NCBI GenBank assembly: GCA_019670725.1
Contig: AP024629.1
Span: 2,480,001 to 2,544,000, forward strand
Direction of reading: 5' to 3'
From: Alphaproteobacteria bacterium SO-S41
Lineage (GTDB): Bacteria > Pseudomonadota > Alphaproteobacteria > Micropepsales > Micropepsaceae
Length of the DNA: 64,000 bases
Shown here: positions 3,296-47,398 of the stretch, in pieces
Layout of the letters: each line of letters starts with the position of its first letter
Position numbering within the stretch: position 1 is the stretch's first letter
Position numbers and translations under genes: made by a program
The notes under the pieces: generated by a model
What the model was told of the DNA's origin: nothing
Seen by the model: the letters and a program-made list of their open reading frames with translations, nothing else
Databases searched by the model: none

Positions 3296-4996
<1,701 letters not shown>

Positions 4997-25332: not shown

Positions 25333-25494
25333 TGAACTGGCTGAACCCTGGAGTCCGGCGCTTATAACATCGCATCTCGCACCTGCAATCCAATTGGACT
25401 GACGAGTGAAATCAGACAGAAGCGCGTTGTAGCGCCGCAACGCGTCTGTTATGAGCCCCGCTTCGTTCCGCCAGAGCGATCGACTGCGTTCTGA

Positions 25495-25568
25495 GGCCAC
25501 GTGGCGGAGTGGTTACGCAGAGGACTGCAAATCCTTGTATCCCGGTTCGATTCCGGGCGTGGCCTCCA
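25495..25568 (+). tRNA. tRNA-Cys (GCA)
   Basis: 74-nt cloverleaf. Acceptor GGCCACG pairs with CGTGGCC, discriminator T, encoded CCA. The anticodon loop CTGCAAA sits in an AGGA/TCCT stem, giving GCA. The T arm is CCCGGTTCGATTCCGGG. Confidence 0.97.
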
Positions 25569-25613
25569 CTTTCTTCATCGTTATGAACCAAACGACTCCA
25601 CAAACGGGTAGCG

Positions 25614-25629
25614 TTAACCGCGCTTTAAC
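25614..25629 (+). promoter_or_regulatory. Perfect CtrA-binding box
   Basis: TTAA (25614-25617), seven bases, TTAAC (25625-25629), the full CtrA consensus TTAA-N7-TTAAC. Because the left half sits in GTTAAC, the consensus also reads on the minus strand. The only element just downstream on the plus strand is a candidate small RNA ending in a strong terminator. Confidence 0.65.
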
Positions 25630-25650
25630 CCTCCTGAAGTATCCATTCAT

Positions 25651-25723
25651 TGTCTTCCCTTGAAGACACCCCACCATTCGAGTTTACCTTTTACGGGCCG
25701 CAGCAATGCGGCCCGCTCTTTTT
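25651..25723 (+). ncRNA. Candidate small RNA (CtrA box, hairpin, C-rich linker, terminator)
   Basis: Starting about 22 bases after the CtrA box is a 7-bp hairpin (25651-25657 with 25662-25668, loop CCTT). A single-stranded stretch beginning CCCCACC (25669-25693) follows, then the rho-independent terminator at 25694-25723. This is the plan of a roughly 70-nt trans-acting RNA, with a C-rich patch that could bind Shine-Dalgarno sequences. No protein frame is convincing here. The alternative is that the terminator merely ends read-through from tRNA-Cys. Confidence 0.4.
25694..25723 (+). terminator. Strong intrinsic terminator
   Basis: Nine-bp perfect GC stem (25694-25702 with 25707-25715), GCAA tetraloop, then CTCTTTTT. 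It lies between tRNA-Cys and tRNA-Asn and ends either the tRNA-Cys transcript or the small RNA candidate. Confidence 0.88.
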
Positions 25724-25782
25724 GTGCAATGCCGTCACCGGCATTGACGTGGGTGGGCGCTTTCGTTACGCACCGCACGCGA

Positions 25783-25857
25783 TCCGCGGTAGCTCAGTGG
25801 TAGAGCAGCCGGCTGTTAACCGGCTGGTCGTAGGTTCGAATCCTACCCGCGGAGCCA
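25783..25857 (+). tRNA. tRNA-Asn (GTT)
   Basis: 75-nt cloverleaf. Acceptor TCCGCGG pairs with CCGCGGA, discriminator G, encoded CCA. Anticodon loop CTGTTAA gives GTT. The T arm is GTAGGTTCGAATCCTAC. Confidence 0.97.
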
Positions 25858-25980
25858 TTCCCTTAAATGGCTGACCTGAGGCAGTGACGGCGCTTCATGC
25901 GCTCTCGCTGCCGTTCGGCTTTTTGAAGCGAAGCGCCTGCGCTTCGTGGCATGATGGGGCAACCATCATTCGAGAGCCTC

Positions 25981-46518: not shown

Positions 46519-46567
46519 GAAACGACTCGATCCCGACAGGTTTTCCCCTTTATACAGGGTCTTCATC

Positions 46568-46671
46568 CGGGGGGAGCCGCAGGCGGCGCGAAAGCGCCCG
46601 CAGCGCGGCTGAGAGGTTCCGACAAGGAACGACCCCTTGAACCTGAACCGGTTAGCACCGGCGGAGGGACG
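46568..46671 (+). promoter_or_regulatory. TPP riboswitch (THI element)
   Basis: All conserved blocks are present in order: GGGGGAGC at 46570-46576, CGGCTGAGAGG (46606-46616), the ACCCCTTGAACCTGA core (46632-46646) and CCGGTTAGCACCGGCGGAGGGA (46648-46669, split). It controls the ThiZXY-type importer that starts five bases later. The final GGAGGG doubles as the Shine-Dalgarno for a TTG start, which suggests translational control by ligand-dependent sequestration. Confidence 0.93.
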
Positions 46672-46675
46672 GACC

Positions 46676-47398
46676 TTGACGCCTCACCCCGCGGCAACGC
46701 GGATCGACATCACCGCACTCAGCCTCGCCTATGGGCGGGCGCCGCTGTTCGATCGGCTCGACCTCAGCGTCGCGCCGGGCGAGGTGCTGTGCCTGCTGGG
46801 GCCGAGCGGTGCCGGCAAGTCGACGCTGCTGCGCGCCATGGCCGGGCTGGTGCGGCCCGAGGGCGGCAGCGTCGTGGCCGGCGGCGCGGTGGCGCTGATG
46901 ACCCAGGACGATGCTCTGCTGCCCTGGGCGCGGGTGGTCGAGAATGTCGTGCTGGGCGCGCGCCTGCGGGGGGAGCGGCCGGATGTGCCGCGCGCCGAAG
47001 CGCTGCTGCATGCGGTGGGCGTGAACGATCTCGCCAAGCGGCCGGATGCGCTTTCCGGCGGCATGCGCAAGCGGGTGGCGCTGGCCTGGCTGCTCTATGA
47101 GGACCGGCCGATTGCATTGCTCGACGAGCCCTTTGCGGCGCTCGACGCGATCACGCGGCGCAGCGTCCAGGCGCTGACGCTGCAGAGCCTGATCGGCTGT
47201 ACCGTCGTGCTGGTCACGCACGATCCGTTCGAGGCGCTGGCGATGGGCACGCGGATCGTCGTGCTGGCCGGCGTGCCGGCGCGGATCGCGCTCGACGAAC
47301 GCCTGCCGCCCGCGCCGCTGGGGACGTTGCGCGATCCCGCCGATCCCGATCTGCGCCCGGCCTATCTGCGCATCCTTGCCGCACTGGAAGCGCCATGA
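46676..47398 (+). CDS. thiZ: Thiamine-precursor ABC transporter ATPase (ThiZ-like)
   Basis: 240 residues. Walker A GPSGAGKST (42-50), Q-loop MTQDDALLPWARVVEN, signature LSGGMRKRVALAW and Walker B IALLDEPFAALDA. The DDALLPW form matches nitrate/taurine/HMP-type ATPases. The TTG at 46676 is chosen because GGAGGG of the riboswitch stands eight bases before it; the frame is open earlier only through riboswitch sequence. The next gene overlaps by ATGA. Confidence 0.9.
   Translation: MTPHPAATRIDITALSLAYGRAPLFDRLDLSVAPGEVLCLLGPSGAGKSTLLRAMAGLVRPEGGSVVAGGAVALMTQDDALLPWARVVENVVLGARLRGERPDVPRAEALLHAVGVNDLAKRPDALSGGMRKRVALAWLLYEDRPIALLDEPFAALDAITRRSVQALTLQSLIGCTVVLVTHDPFEALAMGTRIVVLAGVPARIALDERLPPAPLGTLRDPADPDLRPAYLRILAALEAP

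Follow-up and report, generated by a model that had tools for sequence, protein, structure and literature searches.

Results

A putative transcription unit between two tRNA genes

Does the spacer between the genes for tRNA-Cys and tRNA-Asn hold an RNA gene of its own, and if so, what drives its transcription? In the window, by which we mean the whole 64,000-nucleotide stretch of DNA that was analyzed, the tRNA-Cys (gca) gene at positions 25495 to 25568 (+) and the tRNA-Asn (gtt) gene at positions 25783 to 25857 (+) are separated by 214 nt. An initial annotation had placed a CtrA-controlled small RNA (sRNA) between two tRNA genes, and its spacer (25569–25782) is indeed exactly the interval between them. 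The elements that it had described are likewise found in series. A perfect TTAA-N7-TTAA sequence, matching the full CtrA box motif (25614–25628, +), lies 45 nt beyond tRNA-Cys and 22 nt ahead of a 7-bp hairpin (TGTCTTC-CCTT-GAAGACA, 25651–25668, +). The hairpin is followed by CCCCACC (25669–25675, +), which sits inside the unpaired and conserved stretch CACCCCACCA and forms a candidate pairing region, and then by an intrinsic terminator (25694–25723, +). The 9-bp stem of this terminator (25694–25715) has a loop of 4 nt, includes eight G-C pairs and continues into CTCTTTTTGT, with the T tract at 25719 to 25723. A −10-like hexamer, TATCCA, is present at 25640 to 25645 (+), and a search of the locus for a TTGACA/TATAAT-type promoter yielded none.

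The box is the sole match to TTAA-N7-TTAA on either strand of the 64 kb, where 0.04 matches are expected and where 4 of 100 shuffled sequences contained one. The segment from 25645 to 25725 folds with a predicted energy of −27.8 kcal/mol versus a mean of −13.3 kcal/mol for shuffled versions (z −5.7). Terminator-like sites as such were no rarer than chance (2 found versus 2.5 expected in 2.5 kb); it is conservation and covariation that set this unit above chance. Two mechanically called open reading frames overlap the unit (25451–25663 and 25650–25874, both +). Among relatives, however, the loop of the 5′ hairpin measures 3, 4, 5 or 6 nt, such that no reading frame through the hairpin is kept. 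Thus we rejected a protein-coding interpretation, in agreement with the initial annotation, which had found no fitting protein frame. Elsewhere in the window, a TPP riboswitch is found at 46560 to 46686 (+) with a score of 65.2 bits, above the Rfam cut-off.

Conservation within the genus and order

Searches with the spacer matched nothing in its own genome except the spacer itself. The spacer was matched in all five genomes of the genus (the matches in G003 and G004 are split or broken by a contig end), and the whole block can be aligned among them. Within the order, the core was matched in 76 of 96 genomes, including 57 of the 60 more complete ones, and outside of the genus these matches mostly cover all or some of the core TGTCTTCCCTTGAAGACACCCCACCATT. 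Fifty order loci were viewed, all fetched with a 126-nt query that itself contained the box; in 47, a perfect box starts 37 to 39 nt upstream of GTCTTC, and in the remaining 3 the box has one mismatch. Genomes labeled Rhizomicrobium belong to this order, as one stretch (L044, from G064) is identical to that of a Rhizomicrobium assembly (L200). Similarly, the stretch from G001, a genus mate of the window, corresponds to one labeled Hyphomonadaceae (L193). One order genome (G068) has two copies of the sRNA in opposite orientation on a single contig (L056, 1190–1269 on the minus strand and 3499–3575 on the plus strand), and another (G073) also gave two matches.

Relatives in several orders of Alphaproteobacteria

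A covariance model built from 29 order sequences, termed R2, was used to search 385 genomes of the class. Sixteen genomes, in seven families, gave matches at E < 1e-10, and weaker matches were obtained in G447 and G370, two genomes from an additional family (f63). At E ≤ 0.01 some match was found in 53 of the 385 genomes, many probably by chance. Twelve weak matches (L084, L086 and L088–L097) revealed no convincing core and no tRNA on viewing and were left out of the counts, and a second match in the window's own genome (G000:C1:3700813-3700891, E 0.0018) was attributed to chance, since the part of it that was viewed (L305) lacks the core. A simpler pattern combining the box with CCCACCAT was found in 22 of the 385 genomes, several of which are A+T-rich and probably represent chance matches.

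The R2 matches in G447 and G370 coincide with matches to RF01519, the Rfam model for the Caulobacter sRNA CC0196. This model matched 1 of 190 genomes in a thin sample of the class, and that match was partial, making it a poor tool at such distance. Within f63, it matched 53 of 60 genomes at E ≤ 0.1 (19 above the gathering cut-off), and within one f63 genus it matched 61 of 75 genomes at E ≤ 0.001 (55 above the cut-off). Because RF01519 matches in f63 and, among 14 named control genomes, in Caulobacter vibrioides only, we take f63 to be Caulobacteraceae and its tested genus to be Caulobacter.

A scan of named genomes for the box and a perfect hairpin separated by 15 to 30 nt returned at least 117 stretches, of which 80 were examined among the matches listed. 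The record titles of these listed matches include Caulobacter, Phenylobacterium, Maricaulis, Woodsholea, Hyphomonas, Robiginitomaculum, Hellea, Hirschia, Aquidulcibacter, Parvularculaceae and Rhizomicrobium electricum, as well as many metagenome assemblies. Rhizomicrobium, Maricaulis, Hyphomonas, Parvularculaceae and Phenylobacterium place the box and hairpin in five NCBI orders, namely Micropepsales, Maricaulales, Hyphomonadales, Parvularculales and Caulobacterales, respectively. Judged from these comparisons, the predicted sRNA gene is real, conserved, equipped with a CtrA-box promoter, and common to several orders of Alphaproteobacteria.

The CtrA box and a putative −10 element keep a near-constant distance to the predicted RNA

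In the 80 listed loci of the named-genome scan, the box and the hairpin are separated by 23 nt in 52 cases, 24 nt in 23, 25 nt in 4 and 19 nt in 1. The exception (L251) has neither a tRNA gene nor a CCCCACC-type stretch and was taken as a chance match. Since the scan selects for the box, the spacing was recounted on loci that were fetched without requiring it. This set of 126 loci, 13 of which gave no anchor under the rule applied, yielded 115 rows, or 98 after deduplication; its order loci, however, came from the 126-nt query that contained the box. A perfect box is present in 71 of the 98 rows, and a box with no more than one mismatch begins 37 to 39 nt before GTCTTC in 97; there are 3 box matches of this quality elsewhere in the 95 nt upstream. 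The remaining row (L038) has a perfect box at −38 when read on the proper strand. Of the 13 loci without a recognized anchor, 11 are apparently real and also show the box, again with no more than one mismatch, at −38 or −39; L155 and L156 appear to be false hits.

When loci from all sources were pooled, box-selected ones included, 119 remained after deduplication. The perfect box begins at −38 in 73 of these, at −39 in 29, at −37 in 1 and at −40 in 1, and in each of the 15 others the box, at −38 or −39, has a single mismatch. Where the box begins at −38, an A at −11 is present in 73 of 73 loci and a T at −7 in 68. Two C nucleotides at −23 and −22 continue the box, and apart from A−11 and T−7, no further column of the spacer carries more than 0.7 bits. 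At the 29 loci whose box starts at −39, the A is distributed between −12 and −11 and the T between −8 and −7, and across all 119 loci A−11 occurs in 105 and T−7 in 98. The window has the A at −11 as in its relatives, but an A rather than the usual T at −7. In −10 elements these two bases are the strongest, and their conservation therefore places the predicted +1 at position 25652, the hairpin's first G. The resulting predicted RNA of about 72 nt (25652–25723, +) agrees with the 60 to 75 nt product and the 5′ end near 25650 to 25660 that had been anticipated for this locus.

With this predicted start site, the 5′ base of the box falls at −38. In the report by Zhou et al. (PMC4287350), full CtrA motifs at activated Caulobacter promoters have their 5′ base near −35, and at −39 for ctrA P2, whereas repressing half sites lie over the −10 element; six noncoding RNAs are counted among the CtrA-controlled start sites. 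All five genomes of the genus encode a CtrA homolog (89% identity to the query). An arrangement in which CtrA or another protein represses transcription from the box, with stress or some other input as the main signal for the sRNA, would accommodate the 3.7-fold rise with mitomycin C listed, as a response that is not specific, for CCNA_R0004, very probably the Caulobacter homolog (PMC6237742). We consider repression improbable, however, given that full motifs beginning near −38 occupy the position typical of activation.

The comparison thus supports a predicted RNA gene with such a promoter plan and such an end. In the proposed mechanism, CtrA would bind the box that starts 38 nt before +1 and would work with RNA polymerase at the −10 element, and transcription would proceed from position 25652 to the terminator (~25723). 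If CtrA is the activator here, the RNA should appear when CtrA does.

Covariation of the RNA structure

Covariation was assessed on 85 rows aligned to the model. The terminator helix shows two-sided changes at all nine pairs, with 96.6% of its cells paired. All lettered cells of the 5′ hairpin helix pair as well, and this helix exhibits 25 one-sided and 2 two-sided changes. Because the 5′ hairpin hardly varies, covariation says little about it. Moreover, the rows had been fitted to the structure, and 11 of the 84 sources derive from a search that selected for perfect stems, so the weight of the covariation evidence rests on the terminator helix. The best-kept letters of the unit include the arms of the 5′ hairpin and CACCCCACCA, well upstream of the terminator.

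Neighboring tRNA genes

The downstream neighbor is nearly constant among relatives. A tRNA-Asn gene on the same strand follows in 73 of the 80 listed named loci, starting 134 to 772 nt after the start of the hairpin. Of the seven without it, six have less than 600 nt of contig left and one is the putative chance match L251. In the tested genus taken as Caulobacter, tRNA-Asn downstream and the box (at most one mismatch) are present in 29 of 29 loci viewed, of 30 listed. tRNA-Asn was not found at two (L143 and L148) of the 35 f63 loci viewed, and in some other Caulobacteraceae it is inverted. Part of the Caulobacter genus (L328–L334, L336–L339 and others) has two tandem tRNA-Asn genes after the sRNA.

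The upstream neighbor varies. A tRNA-Cys gene precedes the RNA in 34 of the 80 loci, ending 66 to 1251 nt away; it is absent from 40 loci with at least 1.6 kb of upstream sequence, from 5 with 0.7 to 1.6 kb and from 1 with less. These counts bear on whether the RNA might be a 3′ trailer processed from the tRNA-Cys transcript, with the TTAA box being incidental. The proximity of tRNA-Cys to the box in the window fits such an origin, and, as the title of one paper indicates, tRNA trailers can act as RNAs. Yet half of the listed loci lack tRNA-Cys over at least 1.6 kb, its distance is variable where it is present, and the box and −10 columns hold their distance to the RNA. Given that tRNA-Cys precedes only 34 of the loci and tRNA-Asn follows 73, the RNA is not simply a tRNA-Cys trailer, and we regard that origin as very unlikely; the possibility that transcripts always begin at tRNA-Cys is likewise weakened.

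Equally hard to sustain is the notion that the unit is mainly a boundary, in which the terminator insulates tRNA-Asn and the RNA has no targets, since despite the constancy of tRNA-Asn in the named and Caulobacter loci, the best-kept letters lie well before the terminator and tRNA-Asn lies at variable distances, or on the other strand in some Caulobacteraceae. The near-constant distance from box to hairpin, the −10 element, the covariation of the terminator and the catalogued Caulobacter homolog support an sRNA gene of its own behind a CtrA-box promoter, as the initial annotation had suggested.

Candidate targets

The exposed CACCCCACCA is a natural candidate for pairing, and a mechanism acting at ribosome-binding sites is plausible. 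With less certainty than the promoter, we suppose that this stretch might pair with G-rich sequences in or near the ribosome-binding sites of target mRNAs and thereby alter translation. The 10-mer complement TGGTGGGGTG occurs at seven sites in the own genome besides the sRNA itself. By crude frame calls, none of the seven is at the evident start of a long frame, and most lie inside longer frames; one (L314) has no frame of at least 80 aa over it, and another (L310) is located 99 nt upstream of a frame of 470 aa, which itself overlaps a further frame.

We also inspected ctrA and gcrA, in whose 5′ regions GGGG is the motif that the Caulobacter RNA CcnA is reported to bind (PMC8959179). In five of five genus genomes, both ctrA (L323–L327) and gcrA (L317–L321) have GGGG in the 20 nt preceding the start; these genes are orthologs and do not count as independent observations. 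Among crude starts in the window, 5 of 51 have GGGG there. Duplex energies for ctrA and gcrA were no better than those of shuffles, as 81 to 145 and 106 to 172, respectively, of 200 mononucleotide shuffles were as good. Neither the 10-mer search nor the duplex test thus yielded a convincing target. In the course of this analysis, a second, shorter GcrA-family match (40 bits) was seen in a 306-aa open frame of the own genome (G000:C1:1214143-1214454, L322).

Discussion

Taken as a whole, the explanation that we consider likely is an independent sRNA gene of about 72 nt, homologous to CC0196, transcribed from a CtrA-box promoter and bearing a candidate region for pairing with ribosome-binding sites. 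A CtrA-boxed sRNA kept so widely suggests a conserved RNA output of the cell-cycle circuit, and the comparison yields an exact predicted start site, box and pairing region as targets for mutation. A far more ambitious and rather doubtful proposal is that a CtrA-fired sRNA was already present when Caulobacterales, Micropepsales and several further orders diverged and constitutes a standing post-transcriptional arm of cell-cycle control, in which, once CtrA is active, CACCCCACCA would pair with G-rich ribosome-binding sites such as those of ctrA and gcrA, following the logic of CcnA in a more widely shared gene.

Comparison with known sRNAs

The RNA predicted here resembles CcnA (CCNA_R0094) of Caulobacter in being a noncoding RNA that is preceded by a CtrA box and exposes a CCCC stretch. 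According to the CcnA report (PMC8959179), however, that RNA is 182 nt long and lies at the replication origin, as opposed to about 72 nt predicted between two tRNA genes, and a Caulobacter table (PMC5988900) keeps CCNA_R0094 and CCNA_R0004 as separate RNAs. We therefore rejected identity with CcnA on length and neighborhood and view the two as different RNAs with similar logic.

The BjrC1505 RNA (RF02356) likewise shares a CtrA-like box upstream, a hairpin and a terminator, but differs in its core (...GACGCCTCCCTGTT...), which is absent from the spacer, and in its surroundings, as a tRNA was found at 0 of 28 loci viewed. The window scores 21.4 bits versus a gathering cut-off of 50, the own genome (G000) has no RF02356 match at E ≤ 0.01, and two genomes (G217 and G320) carry BjrC1505 and an R2-type RNA at separate places. 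BjrC1505 was thus rejected as the same family, its matches being another RNA at other places. Among BjrC1505 loci (within L158–L186), a box with at most one mismatch is found near the model start in 23 of 24 tested, 9 of them perfect, versus 8% of shuffles, although this count, from 24 tested of 28 viewed, is not independent because the Rfam model covers the stretch. BjrC1505 may be a second CtrA-linked sRNA family.

The closest known system is CC0196, for which Landt et al. 2008 is the likely discovery paper. By gene position, CC0196 (RF01519) is very probably CCNA_R0004, which lies between CCNA_00197 and CCNA_00196 and is listed in PMC6237742 with its own promoter and a length of 133 nt. The listed length is a misfit with a 72-nt unit, unless the Caulobacter RNA is longer at one end. 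The table in PMC5988900 annotates CCNA_R0004 as “cell cycle regulated” and gives it no phase, low reads with a maximum at 80 min, a single CtrA half site but no full site, and cpaE and maf as predicted targets. Among titles and abstract openings concerning CC0196 or CCNA_R0004, we found no treatment of its spread or promoter.

CC0196 and the window RNA have in common the 5′ hairpin, a (C)CCCACCATCAC stretch, the terminator and a nearby tRNA-Asn gene, in addition to a CtrA box that has no more than one mismatch and lies at a similar offset. They differ in the tail after CCACCATT (TCGAGTTTACC versus CACTGACTT), and the Rfam model leaves out the opening letters of the hairpin. Against RF01519, the window reaches 22.1 bits (E 0.011 for 551 bases), below the gathering cut-off of 35. 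The place and the order of box, hairpin, CCCACCA, terminator and tRNA-Asn are nevertheless orthologous, with G447 and G370 matched at the same places, and this architecture is present in 33 of the 35 f63 loci viewed (L155 and L156 being the apparent false hits) and in 29 of 29 loci of the Caulobacter genus. From these alignments, the window RNA is a wider relative and predicted homolog of CC0196 that falls outside the present, narrowly drawn RF01519 model. CC0196 has been catalogued as a Caulobacter RNA; the comparison here places putative relatives with the same promoter plan in five orders.
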